The translations under genes were made by a program, and so were the position numbers. DNA of 64,000 nt from Natronolimnobius baerhuensis (lineage in GTDB: Archaea > Halobacteriota > Halobacteria > Halobacteriales > Natrialbaceae): NCBI RefSeq assembly GCF_002177135.1, contig NZ_MWPH01000004.1:124001-188000 (forward strand). Direction: 5' to 3'. How positions within the stretch are numbered: position 1 is the first letter of the stretch; each line of letters opens with the position of its first letter. The notes below the pieces were generated by a model. That model worked only from the letters and a program-made list of their open reading frames with translations. It ran no database searches and was not told the DNA's origin. Shown here in pieces: positions 36,691-46,899 of the stretch.

Positions 36691-36886
36691 GATTCGAGAT
36701 GGACGGCGATGTGTGTCACTCCGATTCGTAATCGGATAGGTTTTTTGCTAGCCTCTGTTGTGCTAGTTGCTACCACACGTAAGTTCACGTGGTAGATACA
36801 TAGATGTGACGGCGTTCGGTAAATTTGTGAGAACACTGTGTGCTCGCACAGATGGGTTTTTGGCTGTGCCCACCCGCCACGTAACT
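36691..36886. promoter_or_regulatory. Divergent promoter region of cdc48-like gene and larC
   Basis: It contains a perfect inverted repeat CCGATT-CGT-AATCGG (36721-36735), followed by a T run, and a second with arms CTACCAC (36770-36776) and GTGGTAG (36789-36795). Either may serve in regulation. No gene is present. Confidence 0.4.
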
Positions 36887-38299
36887 ATGCACGTCCTCGC
36901 ATTCGATGGCCGAATGGGCGCAAGCGGCGATATGTTGCTCGCCGCGCTCCTCGATGCCGGCGCTGATTCCGCCGTCCTCGAGCCCGTTACTGACGCCCTC
37001 GAGATCGAGTACCGGATCGACGAGACGAGTAAGTGCGGTATTTCGGCCACGACCGTCGACGTAGTGTTCTCGGACTCGAGCGACGCAACGTCGGGTCATG
37101 ACGGCAGCGAACACGATGACGGAGCCGAGCCACACGATCAGGCGCACGAACACCCACACGCGCATGGTGACGAAGGGCACAGCCACGAACACACAGACGA
37201 CGAAGGCCACAGCCACGAACACACAGACGACGAAGGCCACAGCCACGAACACACAGACGACGAAGGCCACAGCCACGAACACGACCACGTCCACGCCGAA
37301 GGCCACGGCCCACAGCGCAGCTATCTCGAGGTCTGTGCAATCGTCGAGGGGATGGCCCTACCCGAGCCCGTCGAGCGCGACGTGCTCGCGATCTTCGAAC
37401 TGCTCGGCGAGGCCGAAGCCAGCGTCCACGGCGAAGCCCTCGAGGACATTCACTTCCACGAGGTCGGCGCGGACGACGCCATCGCGGACATCGTCGGCAC
37501 GGTGCGCTTACTCCATGACCTCGAGCCGGATCGCGTCGTGACAACCCCGCTTGCCACCGGTGGCGGCACGGCCTCGATGGCCCACGGCGAGTTTCCCGTC
37601 CCGACGCCCGCCGTCCTCGAGATTGCCGAGCGCGCGGAGTGGTCACTGCGCGGTGGTCCCGTCGAGGCCGAACTCCTAACGCCGACGGGCGCAGCGATCC
37701 TCGGCCACGTCGCAGACGGTGTCGAGGTGCTCCCGACGCTCGAGGTCGACGCCTCAGGCTACGGTGCCGGTGGCTACGATCTCGACCCGCATCCGAACGT
37801 CTTGCGCGTACTCGTCGGGGACGACGGCGCGCGCGGTGGCTTGGTGAAAGACGATATTGCCGTCCTCGAGACGAACCTCGACGACGCGACGCCGGAGGTC
37901 CTGGGTGGACTACAGGAGACGCTCGCGGACGCGGGCGCGCGGGACGTCTCAATTGTGCCAGCGACGATGAAGAAATCGCGGCCGGGTCATCTGGTGAAAG
38001 TCATCTGCAAGCCGGCGGACCGGGAACGTGTCGCGCGCGCACTGGCGGAAGAGACCGGCACCCTAGGTGTGCGAGATGCCGGTGCAACGCATCGATGGAT
38101 CGCACACCGGGAGTTCGAGACAGTGGAAGTGGCACTCGAGGGCGGAACGTACGACGTCACTGTGAAAATCGCGCGTGACAGCGAGGGCGCGGTGTACGAC
38201 GTGAGTGCGGAGTACGACGACGCGAAGGCGGTTGCAGCCGAGGCCGGGGTTCCGATCAGAACCGTGATTCAGCGGGCTGAATCGCTTGTACAGGAGTGA
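36887..38299 (+). CDS. larC: LarC, nickel-insertion protein for the NPN cofactor (pyridinium-bisthiocarboxylate nickel chelatase)
   Basis: LarC inserts nickel into the pincer cofactor of lactate racemase. The 470-residue product starts MHVLAFDGRMGASGDMLLAALL, the DUF111/LarC opening, and has the conserved DIHFHEVGADDAIADIVG and HGEFPVPTPAVLEI. Residues about 71-140 are histidine-rich and include four tandem copies of a 10-residue unit (EGHSHEHTDD), probably a nickel store. The protein is one uninterrupted frame, unlike the Lactobacillus gene, which needs a ribosomal frameshift. I chose ATG 36887; an upstream in-frame start would add 40 residues without family resemblance. LarA, LarB and LarE are not in this window. 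Confidence 0.92.
   Translation: MHVLAFDGRMGASGDMLLAALLDAGADSAVLEPVTDALEIEYRIDETSKCGISATTVDVVFSDSSDATSGHDGSEHDDGAEPHDQAHEHPHAHGDEGHSHEHTDDEGHSHEHTDDEGHSHEHTDDEGHSHEHDHVHAEGHGPQRSYLEVCAIVEGMALPEPVERDVLAIFELLGEAEASVHGEALEDIHFHEVGADDAIADIVGTVRLLHDLEPDRVVTTPLATGGGTASMAHGEFPVPTPAVLEIAERAEWSLRGGPVEAELLTPTGAAILGHVADGVEVLPTLEVDASGYGAGGYDLDPHPNVLRVLVGDDGARGGLVKDDIAVLETNLDDATPEVLGGLQETLADAGARDVSIVPATMKKSRPGHLVKVICKPADRERVARALAEETGTLGVRDAGATHRWIAHREFETVEVALEGGTYDVTVKIARDSEGAVYDVSAEYDDAKAVAAEAGVPIRTVIQRAESLVQE
37169..37285 (+). repeat. 30 bp tandem repeat inside larC
   Basis: A 30 bp unit is repeated almost exactly about 3.8 times and encodes EGHSHEHTDD each time. Near-identical copies at the DNA level suggest recent expansion by slippage or unequal recombination, so copy number may vary between strains. 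Confidence 0.85.
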
Positions 38300-38418: not shown

Positions 38419-38931
38419 TTAGTCGTCGAAGTCACCGAAGTCGATACTAATGTCGACATCATCGCCGATTTCCGAGTCGACCGACTGATCGGCGCTCGTG
38501 TCAGCCGTCGTGGTGACGTTGCTCACGTCAGCGTTGTTCTGCTGGGCGACATCCTGTGCTTGGTTCACTTCAGAGAACGCGAACGAGCCAGCGGTTGCGC
38601 TGCCAGCGTCAGCAGGGGAAGCCAGCTGTTCTGCACCGTTCTTGTAGTGGTCACCAGTGGCAACCGCGCCGCCGCCAGCGCCACCATCACTCACAGCGAT
38701 TGCGTCACCGGAAGTCGCTTCAGAGACGCCAATCTGTGCGTTATTGTTGTTCTGGTCGACGTTGACATTAGTCTCAGCCGCTGCGTCACCAGTGTCTTGG
38801 TCACCGAAGTCGATGTCGAAACCGAAGTCATCAGGATCGACGTTTTGCGCCGCAGCGGTTCCTGCAAACCCCATGAACATGAGGCTACCAATCATCGCTA
38901 CCGTCAGTGTGATCGCGAATGTTCGTTTCAT
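38419..38931 (-). CDS. Secreted N/Q-rich protein with curlin-like motifs
   Basis: The 170-residue product has a clear Sec signal (MKRTFAITLTVAMIGSLM then AGTAAAQ). The mature part is acidic and low in complexity, with stretches such as TNVNVDQNNNNAQIGV, SGDAIAV and SEVNQAQDVAQQNNADV. These match the repeat style of the five-repeat protein encoded divergently about 640 bp away (SEVNQYQNVEQVNINQQNN). It ends in an Asp/Phe-rich tail (ISIDFGDFDD). There is no membrane anchor or sorting signal. It may be a minor subunit or nucleator of a shared extracellular fibre; this is inference. Confidence 0.8.
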   Translation of the reverse strand: MKRTFAITLTVAMIGSLMFMGFAGTAAAQNVDPDDFGFDIDFGDQDTGDAAAETNVNVDQNNNNAQIGVSEATSGDAIAVSDGGAGGGAVATGDHYKNGAEQLASPADAGSATAGSFAFSEVNQAQDVAQQNNADVSNVTTTADTSADQSVDSEIGDDVDISIDFGDFDD

Positions 38932-39572
38932 AGTTGCGTTGGTCTAGGCACGCATCACACACACGGCTGGGAACTGCTCCCTCTCCGACGAGTGGCAGAT
39001 CGTGACAGTCCACTATCTGCCGTGTCGCTGTGACGCGTTGCCCAGTCGCTACTCTGCAGGGTATCACACTTGAACCCGGACCACGGTTTCACGCCGAATA
39101 CTCCGATTGTCTCACTGAAGCCAGACCTACCATCGTGTATTCTCACCCACACGTCCTCGAGAACCGACTGGTACCCGTCTCACACTGTCCATTTCCGGAG
39201 ACAGCATTCAGAAAACGAGAGTCTGTGACACACTCTCAGGCGAAATCTTGTGTAGCTGCGACCAGCGCGAACGCTTTCACACGGAATGAGTCGATTGGAC
39301 TCCGAAATAGTTCAGTTCGTTGGCTACTCGAGTGTGGTCAGTTCCCACCAAGCGCGGTATCTGGGACGTTGGAGTCCGCTACTGGATTGTTTCGCAACAA
39401 AGAATACAGCGCGAAGCCACTGCCTTCGGGCCGTAAACCACTGCCTTCTGTTCGGTAGGCGGCTGCATCGACAGGACAACTGACCGATAACAAAGGTGGT
39501 TATCGAGATAGGATGGTTCACGCCGGAGAGATGCAAAAAGAAACGACTCTCACGGCACGAATCAATCAACTC
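38932..39572. promoter_or_regulatory. Long divergent intergenic region with an inverted repeat
   Basis: This 641 bp region has no credible gene. Near its right end, CGATAAC (39485-39491) and GTTATCG (39499-39505) form a perfect 7 bp inverted repeat with a 7 bp spacer, just before the repeat-protein gene. An imperfect direct repeat CCACTGCCTTC occurs twice near 39418-39452. Confidence 0.4.
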
Positions 39573-41141
39573 ATGAGCGACACAACGACGATACGTTCAC
39601 GGTATACGACAGTACTTATGGCGTGTATAGTCGCCCTATCGATGATCGCAGCCGGTGCACCGGCTGCGGCCGCGGGCGAAACTGTTTCCGACGATGCAAG
39701 CGTTCACGCACTCGAGAACGGTGAAGAACTGTATCTCGTCTTTGGTGCTGATCTCGGCGATCAGACCTTAGACGAGTACATCGAAGCACACGCGGCTGGT
39801 GAAGCGGATTCGGAAGTCAACCAGTACCAGAACGTCGAGCAGGTGAATATCAACCAGCAGAACAACGCGACGTCGATTGCCATCGACGGCGGTGAAGCAA
39901 CCGCGATCCAGCAAGCAAACCAGTACAACGACAACGAACAGTTTGCTGACGCGGCCGCACAGAACGTCCAAATTCAGGAGACTGCATTCGAGGACGTTGG
40001 CACCGTCAACGTCGTCATCGGTAACGGCAACGGCCAGCAGTTCGATGGCTGGGGCATCGCCGACAAGAAAGGCGACAAAGCAGACATCGACGCTGACCAG
40101 AGTGCTGACACCGTTGTAACCCAGAGCCAGGTCGTCGGCCAGCTCAACTACAACGAACAGAGCACCGCGTTCGCACTCGCAGAAAACGGCAGTGACGCGA
40201 TTGCACTCCAGCAGTCACAGCAGTCCAACCAGAACCTCCAACACGGTGCAGCGAACGCGACGAACGTCTACCAGGGCGCTGGTGACTTCAGCGATCAGTC
40301 CGCTGATGCGACGGTCACACAGGAACAAGCCCTCGACCAGACGAACTACAACGAACAGGACAGCGCCGTCGCCATCGCAGTCGGTGACAACAGCACCGCA
40401 ACGGCGATTCAGCTGACCGACCAGACCAACTTCAACGACCAGATCGCCACCGCCGACAGCACGAACATCCTCGAGATGATGACCGGCATGAGCGTTGCCA
40501 CGGCCGGCATCGACGATGACGGTGCGATGGATGAAGCCGCAACGGCGATGGGTAATCTCGCAGACGACAAGCACCACGACGACAAGCACGCGGACGATAA
40601 GAAGGACGACGACAAAGACAAAGAGCACAAGAAAGACGACGGCTCGGCACAGTCAGCAACCTCCGAGGTTGCACAGGCCCAGGAAGTCGAGCAGATGAAC
40701 GTCAACCTCCAGAGTTCCGCAATGGCACTCGCAACCAACGGCAGTGATGCCACTGCGGTCCAGTGGTCCCACCAGACCAACGTCAACAGCCAGGTCGGCT
40801 ACGCTGACGCGCTGAACGTCTACGCCGGCCCCGCCTACGCACACGACAGCGTCATCACCTCGGACACGACGAGTGTGATGCTCGGCGGTGACGCCATGGA
40901 CGGTGCCCCAGGAGTCGCGTTCGACGCTGATGCGAACCAGACCAACGACGTCGAACAGGAAGCAAGCGCACAGATCCAGCAGATCCAGTTCGTTGCCCAA
41001 GAGAACATCAACGAACAGCAGGCTGCCATCGCCCTTGCTGATGATGGCGGCAGCGCTGACTCCGCACAGGTGACGATGCAGGAGAACGAAAACATCCAGT
41101 ACAGTGCGGTCGCCTCGACGAACGTCTGGGCTGCAGTCTAA
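39573..41141 (+). CDS. Secreted protein with five curlin-like N/Q repeats
   Basis: From ATG 39573 the product has 522 residues: a Sec signal (ending near APAAAAGE), a short globular part, and five modules of about 55 residues. Each follows the pattern QxQxxxQxNxNxQ, then AxAxA, then a Gly/Ser turn, then QxxxQxNxNxQ, and ends N-[VI]-[YILWQ]. Modules lie at about nt 39810-39971, 40104-40271, 40302-40472, 40656-40823 and 40962-41129. Between modules 3 and 4 is a Lys/Asp/His-rich linker (DDKHHDDKHADDKKDDDK). The ladder of Asn and Gln resembles the CsgA/CsgB curlin repeat, so stacking into an amyloid-like beta structure is plausible. In-frame starts at 39513 and 39531 are possible but give a long N-region. 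There is no cell-wall anchor. Confidence 0.85.
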   Translation: MSDTTTIRSRYTTVLMACIVALSMIAAGAPAAAAGETVSDDASVHALENGEELYLVFGADLGDQTLDEYIEAHAAGEADSEVNQYQNVEQVNINQQNNATSIAIDGGEATAIQQANQYNDNEQFADAAAQNVQIQETAFEDVGTVNVVIGNGNGQQFDGWGIADKKGDKADIDADQSADTVVTQSQVVGQLNYNEQSTAFALAENGSDAIALQQSQQSNQNLQHGAANATNVYQGAGDFSDQSADATVTQEQALDQTNYNEQDSAVAIAVGDNSTATAIQLTDQTNFNDQIATADSTNILEMMTGMSVATAGIDDDGAMDEAATAMGNLADDKHHDDKHADDKKDDDKDKEHKKDDGSAQSATSEVAQAQEVEQMNVNLQSSAMALATNGSDATAVQWSHQTNVNSQVGYADALNVYAGPAYAHDSVITSDTTSVMLGGDAMDGAPGVAFDADANQTNDVEQEASAQIQQIQFVAQENINEQQAAIALADDGGSADSAQVTMQENENIQYSAVASTNVWAAV

Positions 41142-41312: not shown

Positions 41313-41660
41313 CTACTCGAACAGTGATCCGGTCAGGAAGTCATCGGCAGCGTCCTCACTGAAAAGTGAACCGCCGAAGAATCCATCGCTGTCAAAGAGG
41401 ACTCCAGCATCCGAGTCAGTGACCGTCTCTGTCGCTTCGACAGTCTGTTCGTCTTCGACAACCGACTGTTCGCTCTCCTCGACCGTCACGTTCTCAGTTA
41501 TCGTGTCACTTGACTGCGCGAGAGAGGTGTTGTCGGCTTCCATCCCATCGGGTTCTTCCTGTGCAATCACTGCCCCAGTGGCGAGTGCCATTCCAAGCAG
41601 TCCAATTGCGACAGCCAGTGTAATCGCCTGGCGATACCGTCTGTAGTGGCTTTCTGTCAT
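41313..41660 (-). CDS. Small exported acidic protein
   Basis: The 115-residue product has a Sec-type signal or anchor (ITLAVAIGLLGMALATGAVIAQ), then an acidic Glu/Thr/Val-rich segment, and a C-terminus with two copies of a GSLF motif (GGSLFSEDAADDFLTGSLFE). It is encoded opposite the five-repeat protein, convergent with it 171 bp away. No family is recognised. Its location suggests it belongs to the same secreted-protein cluster. Confidence 0.7.
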   Translation of the reverse strand: MTESHYRRYRQAITLAVAIGLLGMALATGAVIAQEEPDGMEADNTSLAQSSDTITENVTVEESEQSVVEDEQTVEATETVTDSDAGVLFDSDGFFGGSLFSEDAADDFLTGSLFE

Positions 41661-45116: not shown

Positions 45117-46034
45117 TTAGTCTTCACCTCCCGTCTCCCCAGGAACCTCCGCGTCAGTGGGAAGCACCAATCGTCGCTCTGTGTACTCGAGGCCGTTCTT
45201 CCGTTCCGTTCGCTTTCTCACTGCGACCCGGTGCTTCGAGAGATCCAACAGCGCATCGATCACCCTCGAGACGAGTTTCTTCGCGTACGTGTCGCTGACG
45301 CCGGCTTCCTGTCTGCGGATCCAGTGTTTGAGGTCGCTGGCGGTGACGTACTCGGCGACGGTTTTGCAGCCGGTCTTCCATGGGTTATCGCCAACACTCG
45401 CGTCCGTCCGTGCCTGCCACAGGGTTGCGGCTAACCGCGTTGGGAGTGCGTTCGCAGCCGAGCGGCGCATGTCGTCGTCCATCCGCGCCAGTTGCTGGAT
45501 CGGTAGGAGGTCGCCGTAGGCGAGCGTGGTGGCAGTGCGCTCAAGCGGGTCCGCCTGCTCGGGCAGTCGGTAATACGTTCGGTCATCGGCTTTGGTGATG
45601 CGCTCGAGGAGATCCCCAGTGATCTCGAGTTCGTGTTCGTCGACGTGCGTCGTTCGAAGGTGGGCTCCCTTCTCGAGTTCGCGCGACTGGAGTTCCGCGA
45701 GGCGCTGCTTGTTCGTCTCGGCTTTCTTGCAGGCGGCCTCGGCGAGGCGGGTCTGCTGGTCCGTCCGTGACTCGCAGTCCTCGAGACGGGTTCGGGCGTG
45801 GTGGAGGGCGTCCTCGAGCTCGGCGATGCGTTCGGTCTTGGTCTCGAGTTCGGACTCGAGCTGTGTGGTTCTGCGCTCGAGTTCCGATTCGAGGCGGTCG
45901 GCTGTGGTCTCGAGGCGCGCAGTTTTCGTCTCGAGTTCGTCGATTCGGGTCAGGGCCTGGTGGAGGGCCGTCTCGAGGTCGGCGTCGGTGGTAGAGTCGG
46001 TCGCGGGAGTGGAGCCAGCGGGCTCGTTACGCAT
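45117..46034 (-). CDS. Coiled-coil protein with C-terminal helix-rich domain
   Basis: The 305-residue product (ATG at 46032-46034, MRNEPAGSTPATD) has a long heptad coiled coil from about residue 18 to 118 (ELETKTARLETTADRLESEL and similar). A second, globular part follows (DDMRRSAANALPTRLAATLW, WKTGCKTVAEYVTASDLKHW, SDTYAKKLVSRVIDALLD) and ends with a basic, winged-helix-like piece (VRKRTERKNGLEYTERRL). Its ATG overlaps the end of the preceding gene by 8 bp, so the two are coupled. It probably binds DNA as a multimer, but the function is unknown. Confidence 0.75.
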   Translation of the reverse strand: MRNEPAGSTPATDSTTDADLETALHQALTRIDELETKTARLETTADRLESELERRTTQLESELETKTERIAELEDALHHARTRLEDCESRTDQQTRLAEAACKKAETNKQRLAELQSRELEKGAHLRTTHVDEHELEITGDLLERITKADDRTYYRLPEQADPLERTATTLAYGDLLPIQQLARMDDDMRRSAANALPTRLAATLWQARTDASVGDNPWKTGCKTVAEYVTASDLKHWIRRQEAGVSDTYAKKLVSRVIDALLDLSKHRVAVRKRTERKNGLEYTERRLVLPTDAEVPGETGGED

Positions 46035-46899
46035 CCTCGACACCCCCGTCGTCGGCGTCAGTGTCGGACGTCTCGTGTGTGCGCTCGGGAGTCTCACTCT
46101 CGTCGCGTTGGGCCGTCGGTTCTGTCCCCTCGAGTGCGTGCTCGTACGGACAGTCCTCGTCGCAGTCGATCTCGACCTCGAGATTCAACTCGGCGTCGAA
46201 ATCGATCCTGACCGTACACTCACACTCGAGGGCAATCGTCGGGGTTACGTCCGCGACAGCGTCCGTTGGGTTGTTCGGGTCCGTGGAGTCGGTGTCCGAC
46301 TCTTGAGTCTCATCCGGCGTGGCTGGCTCTCGAGTCTCCTCCGCAATGTCTGACTCTCGAGTCGTCTCTGGAGTGTCCGGGCGCTCAGTCTCCGGCGTCT
46401 GCGCTCGCGGGTCGTCAGTTAGAGTCTCGTCTCGAGGCTCACCGTCCGGGTTCTCGGCGTGAACCTCGCCACCCGGATTCTCATCTCGCACCTCGCCGTC
46501 CGGCGTCTCCACCTGGGGCTCTCCGTCCGGCTCCGCGTCTCGAGTCTCGCCATCCTCACTCGGTGCATCCGCCGGCGGCTGGTACTTGATCTCCGGGCGC
46601 AGGCCCGTCCCCGGCCCATCGGCATCCGGCCGGTACGGAATCGCCGCCTCCGGCCCAACCGCCGCAATCGCAATCTGGCACGCCTGGGCTCTGATCTCGA
46701 GGACGTGCCGTCGGATATCGGCTCGTGTGTGGGTCGGCACATCCTCAAGTACCGTCCCGTCCGGCTCGTGGACATCCGCAAGGAGTGTGCGCGTGAGCGC
46801 GTCGACGTGCTCGAGGCGCGCGCGGATCGACGGTGTGGTTGTGGCCGGTTCGTCCTGTCGGTCGGGAGCTTTACTATCCCGTGAATCGTCGTCTGACAT
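46027..46899 (-). CDS. Acidic repeat protein coupled to the coiled-coil gene
   Basis: The 290-residue product has a helical N-terminal domain (about 20-90: IRARLEHVDALTRTLLADV, THTRADIRRHVLEIRAQACQ), then a long unstructured Glu/Asp/Pro/Thr region with imperfect repeats of the type PDGEPxxExPDGEVxxEN. Near the C-terminus lies an ordered beta segment with four cysteines (CEC and CDEDC) that could bind a metal. Its stop overlaps the start of the next gene. It may form a complex with the coiled-coil product. I do not recognise the family. Confidence 0.7.
   Translation of the reverse strand: MSDDDSRDSKAPDRQDEPATTTPSIRARLEHVDALTRTLLADVHEPDGTVLEDVPTHTRADIRRHVLEIRAQACQIAIAAVGPEAAIPYRPDADGPGTGLRPEIKYQPPADAPSEDGETRDAEPDGEPQVETPDGEVRDENPGGEVHAENPDGEPRDETLTDDPRAQTPETERPDTPETTRESDIAEETREPATPDETQESDTDSTDPNNPTDAVADVTPTIALECECTVRIDFDAELNLEVEIDCDEDCPYEHALEGTEPTAQRDESETPERTHETSDTDADDGGVEDA

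Follow-up and report, generated by a model that had tools for sequence, protein, structure and literature searches.

A five-module exported protein at the locus

The window analysed, a 64,000-nucleotide stretch of DNA from Natronolimnobius baerhuensis, carries on its forward strand a gene for a five-module exported protein, P1, and on the opposite strand a smaller divergent gene, P2. The features of the two genes are given below in window coordinates.

38419-38931, minus strand: P2, small exported divergent partner of 170 aa whose two half-modules lie apart
38518-38580, minus strand: P2 half-module, A type (VxQxQxVxQxN)
38716-38775, minus strand: P2 half-module, B type (QxNNNAQ)
39466-39572, plus strand: conserved non-coding leader of P1, core GATAACAAAG...TCACG, from the alignment of relatives
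39573-41141, plus strand: P1, five-module exported protein, 522 aa, from the open reading frame and its translation
39573-39674, plus strand: Sec-type signal peptide of P1, residues 1-34, ending ...LSMIAAGAPAAAA before GE, from the sequence and conserved in relatives
39675-39803, plus strand: conserved N-terminal segment of P1, HALENGEELYLVFGADLG...LDEYIEAHA, from sequence conservation
39804-39971, plus strand: P1 module 1, residues 78-133
40104-40274, plus strand: P1 module 2, residues 178-234
40302-40475, plus strand: P1 module 3, residues 244-301
40476-40655, plus strand: P1 variable linker 3, an Asp/Lys/His-rich repeat (DDKHHDDKHADDKKDDDKDKEHKKDD)
40656-40826, plus strand: P1 module 4, residues 362-418
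40962-41132, plus strand: P1 module 5, residues 464-520

P1 is a real gene. Its relatives back the start at 39573: in L002, L003, L014, L015 and others, reading in frame further upstream runs into stops or frame shifts, and these interruptions rule out a longer frame from 39513. Against its nearest relative, L002, P1 has a dN/dS of ~0.13 and is thus under purifying selection. The Sec signal proposed in the first-pass annotation was recovered by eye, as was its cleavage site. The sole cysteine of P1 lies inside the h-region of this signal and is not kept in all relatives, no convincing lipobox was found, and inspection of the C-terminus revealed no anchor. Downstream of P1, a small acidic ORF of 115 aa with a signal-like N-terminus (41313-41660, minus strand) has matches in only a few close relatives.

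The P1 leader, of ~105 nt, shows 77% mean identity across Natrialbaceae and may act as a promoter or in translational control. We dropped the idea of a structured RNA, for which only 4 weak pairs were seen, and that of GATAACAAAG as a regulon motif, given that its four other sites in the genome have no common theme.

Ten direct repeats with one conserved face

P1 consists of five modules of 56-58 aa each. The motif QxxxQxNxNxQ occurs 10 times in the mature protein, two copies per module spaced 27-28 residues apart. In 20,000 shuffles it came up 0.004 times on average and never more than once. The Asn/Gln ladder said to be shared by all five modules is therefore confirmed; the AxAxA element that had been assigned to every module holds for modules 2-5, with TSIAI in its place in module 1. 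The mirrored pattern, QxNxNxQxxxQ, does not occur in P1 at all, which argues that the copies are direct repeats with a unit of ~27 aa, ten in five pairs, and disfavours a hairpin palindrome built of mirrored halves. The motif taken alone is near-palindromic, and a reversed profile scores equal to the direct one.

Among 73 full sequences, modules 2-5 have a length of 57/58 aa in 65-73 of 73 species, and the linkers between modules range from 0 to 78 aa. Strand positions alternate between two faces. The first is made up of 45.6% Q/N, 43.8% A/G/S and 0.3% D/E across the 73 sequences; the opposite face has 32.7% aliphatic residues, 21.4% D/E and 7.3% Q/N. Near-invariant columns fall almost exclusively on the Q/N/A face (73/104 vs 2/100 on the other, p 2e-27), a p value that is overstated because the faces were assigned after the conserved columns had been seen, although the separation is still almost complete. 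The conserved face looks like an amide and alanine ladder of the kind that would be buried.

P1 has the acidic composition of a halophile protein (D+E 84 vs K+R 11), which would fit a low-complexity haloarchaeal protein in which the N/Q spacing has no structural meaning. We regard such an artefact as barely credible, as the spacing is nearly invariant across 73 divergent sequences and ten rungs, the dN/dS is 0.13 and ten motifs are found against 0.004 by chance.

Structure prediction and fold matches

Structure prediction, one of the checks suggested in the first-pass annotation, gave a divided answer. The best AF2 model of modules 2+3 (64 sequences) is all beta with strands of 21-26 residues, a pLDDT of 76.6 and a pTM of 0.45, the other four models scoring 39-57. 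In modules 2+3 the strand breaks after the first QxNxNxQ and turns at NGS. For full-length P1 (30 sequences) the prediction is mostly beta with a pLDDT of 47 and a pTM of 0.36, and shows beta blocks standing apart, with low confidence in the linkers that connect them.

In a Foldseek search of 350,542 PDB chains with modules 2+3, FapC structures ranked 1-2, at E values of 0.02 and 0.2 that are not significant, the next unrelated match having an E of 2.7. With the full P1 model the CsgA fibre 8c50 ranked first, also without significance (E 1.0). The TM-scores of these fibre matches are ~0.1, and VIA-align returned no match at Z of 2 or more. A viral structure library gave unrelated matches, one of which (E 4e-4) is better than FapC, showing that long-strand models match unrelated proteins. 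The Foldseek ranks would weakly suggest an amyloid-type local geometry in the predicted models, and nothing beyond that.

Ice-binding beta-helices were also among the weak Foldseek matches. Together with the conservation of a flat repetitive face, this would fit a protein with an exposed amide/Ala face, a flat lattice that binds glycans, water or a crystal surface (halite, minerals) in the manner of beta-helical ice-binding proteins, and that forms no fibres. We consider this improbable. With 2% threonine, the Q/N/A face has none of the Thr-rich arrays seen in ice-binding proteins; a ladder that stays invariant through ten rungs better suits a buried core; and no such need is known in warm brines.

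The P2 partner and the locus setting

P2 has a signal peptide by sequence and carries its two half-modules in swapped order, B and A type. In most of 30 loci compared by BLAST, and also in most loci of the named genera (listed below), a P2 relative is encoded upstream of P1 in divergent orientation, and under a strict motif rule a P2-like partner is present in 28/39 loci, often ~600 bp from P1. P1 is part of a system. The first-pass annotation overlooked the divergent partner, as well as the single-module paralogues of other genomes and the anchored variants described below. The divergent intergenic region itself (38932-39572) measures ~640 bp, and ~600-690 bp in many relatives.

Genes for LarC and CDC48 usually lie beyond P2, and the P2/P1 pair is kept without this flank in L039 and L045. 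The scan of genes near P1 gave other Pfam domains or none. Natronorubrum bangense has two copies of the P2/P1 locus, one chromosomal and one plasmid-borne (L045 and L046), with equal scores. In the window, a 30-bp tandem repeat has expanded at 37169-37307, inside the LarC-type nickel insertion gene (36767-38299), and reads as His/Asp/Glu-rich sequence; three imperfect 27-33 bp tandem arrays occur at 45828-46555, in or near the minus-strand ORFs 45117-46097 and 46027-46899.

Two adjoining genes for exported proteins could also belong to a secreted antagonism system, either a halocin precursor or a polymorphic surface toxin, and haloarchaea do make antagonistic precursors that proteases activate (PMC12893001). 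The system described there works through alpha helices, whereas P1 is predicted to be all beta, and we reject kinship between the two. P1 is moreover strongly conserved with no diversifying selection, and Pfam and NCBIfam searches with P1 found no relevant family, including no recognised toxin or immunity domain. An antagonistic role is in our view very improbable.

Distribution, single-module proteins and anchored variants

Homologues of P1 were found in 62/293 sampled Halobacteriales genomes and 23/87 genera, mainly Natrialbaceae and Haladaptatus-type genomes. The named loci are from Natrialbaceae (Natrialba, Natrinema, Haloterrigena, Natronorubrum, Halopiger, Halovivax and others), and plasmid records add Haladaptatus and Halomicrococcus to the range of the family. 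In Haladaptatus-type and other genomes, canonical exported single-module proteins of ~110-135 aa are encoded at the place of P2 and in extra tandem arrays, and their invariant Q/N columns are identical to those of the P1 modules. Among the matches listed, every genome with a stand-alone single-module gene also bears P1; one genome, G102, has one weak match. A search of the N. baerhuensis genome with the module profile gave P1 as the only significant match and no canonical single-module gene, leaving P2 with its split half-modules. Near the five-module gene of L134, a 343-aa protein (L134:9713-10744) contains several N/Q half-modules and is intermediate between the one- and five-module forms.

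The statement that P1 has no anchor applies to P1 itself and does not extend to the whole family. The five-module relative in L134 ends in a PGF-CTERM signal (E 2.3e-9, above both curated cut-offs), and that in L141 has a PGF-CTERM-like C-terminal end just below them. Such anchored variants, along with the fixed five-module architecture, fit a surface stalk, and it is possible to see P1 as a stable, non-polymerising beta-rod, a solenoid or stacked beta-layer acting as a stalk, adhesin or S-layer-associated protein, with P2 and the single-module proteins as soluble partners or decoys. The separate beta blocks of the full-length AF2 model also agree with a rod. However, no capping elements were seen at the module ends, the N. 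baerhuensis P1 lacks an anchor, and the tandem families of 110-135-aa exported proteins are better explained as polymer subunits. We therefore think a rod of this kind rather unlikely.

Comparison with curli

Curli repeats are ~23 aa long and run end-to-end in a strand-arc-strand arrangement, with N-x-psi-x-psi-x-Q twice (PMC10192328). P1 resembles curli in that its exported repeats place Gln/Asn at regular intervals along one face of the strand, and in that related subunits are encoded together, albeit in another gene order. Its unit differs, being 27-28 aa with QxxxQxNxNxQ in place of ~23 aa with an XGXX arc. The curlin repeat HMM search that had been put forward as a check was negative: P1 gave no curlin match in Pfam at E<=10, and PF07012 was found in 0/41 haloarchaeal genomes with a positive E. 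coli control. An HMM of the P1 module detected neither CsgA nor CsgB, and profile-profile comparison of the module with the CsgA/B curlin repeats stayed at shuffle level. CsgG (PF03783) is absent from the N. baerhuensis genome but was found in 4 control genomes. Taken together, these results led us to reject membership of P1 in the curlin family. The term curlin-like can be retained in the sense that P1 would work like curlin, with exported N/Q/A-ladder repeats, predicted long strands, conservation and single-module companions. Dueholm 2012 (PMC3521004) mentions one archaeal protein, left unnamed, whose repeats are curli-like; it may or may not be of the P1 family.

Comparison with Fap and archaeal amyloids

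FapC has three repeats with flexible linkers, and the Fap system combines a constant repeat number and invariant Asn/Gln with major and nucleator proteins (PMC12822426). The likeness of P1 to Fap (FapC/FapB of Pseudomonas; PDB 9u4u, 9nqd) extends to conserved imperfect repeats, variable linkers, constant repeat number, invariant Asn/Gln and the putative pairing of a major with a nucleator protein. With fixed repeats of ~57 aa in constant number and linkers that are long and variable, P1 has a layout nearer to Fap than to curli, although Fap has three repeats and P1 five modules. PDB sequence searches with P1 and two profiles (E<=10) returned no FapC chain, the matches being chance N/Q stretches, as in PhoQ, and the Foldseek TM-score of 0.11 with FapC provides no evidence of homology. 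In a 2025 GTDB survey, curli and Fap operons were reported from bacterial phyla (PMC12822426).

The confirmed archaeal functional amyloids in the literature we found are methanogen sheath proteins (PMC6242892, PMC10593813). The MspA/SH sheath proteins of Methanothrix (Methanosaeta) and Methanospirillum are, like P1, archaeal and exported, and form amyloid-like beta arches (PMC6242892, PMC10593813). They are set apart by their published descriptions as a tubular sheath with a cap domain and ~80-aa repeats, an organisation that P1 does not have. In biofilms of Haloferax volcanii, extracellular material is stained by Congo red and ThT (PMC4180959). HVO_1403, a candidate put forward for its homology to an amyloidogenic protein of Sulfolobus, is described as unconfirmed (PMC12520557). 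This amyloid-like material is haloarchaeal and extracellular, with no shown link between HVO_1403 and the P1 family. Our literature search, from which preprints and most subscription journals were absent, found no description of the P1 family, in agreement with the first-pass view that no haloarchaeal equivalent had been described.

A proposed haloarchaeal amyloid-like system

The general trait of functional amyloids, an exported protein with conserved imperfect N/Q-rich repeats, is present in P1 as read from its translation. The best reading of these comparisons is that P1 and P2 would work like curli and Fap while being homologous to them by none of the tests run. With the sequence patterns, the purifying selection, the conserved partner and single-module genes and, more weakly, the predicted models in favour of the amyloid candidacy, we think it probable that P1 and P2 form a two-component, extracellular amyloid-like fibre system of haloarchaea. 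Following export by Sec, each P1 module would fold into one or two cross-beta layers in which Gln/Asn side chains build hydrogen-bond ladders and Ala/Gly/Ser pack tightly, with the acidic and aliphatic face turned outward or toward a second sheet and the Asp/Lys/His-rich linkers looping out. P1 would then represent a pre-formed five-module stack, likely a nucleator or cross-linker, tied to the cell surface in lineages with the PGF-CTERM tail. The small single-module proteins may add at its open ends, as CsgA does on CsgB or FapC on FapB, to give fibres for adhesion or a biofilm matrix at high salt. With a single membrane to cross, Sec export would be enough and no pore of the CsgG or FapF type would be needed.

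Whether haloarchaea evolved a repeat-based functional amyloid of their own, independent of curli, Fap and the methanogen sheaths, in which a five-module anchor or nucleator and one-module subunits assemble in molar salt after Sec export alone, is a proposal to which we would give even chances. In the literature we found, haloarchaeal biofilm amyloid has only an unconfirmed candidate (PMC12520557). The P1 family offers a concrete, conserved gene pair. As this pair comes with a clear sequence rule, ten 27-aa rungs of Q-Q-N-N-Q, the question is directly testable in tractable genera. If true, the system would be a case of amyloid assembly at molar salt in the absence of an outer-membrane secretion channel, and may supply salt-resistant building blocks for fibres.
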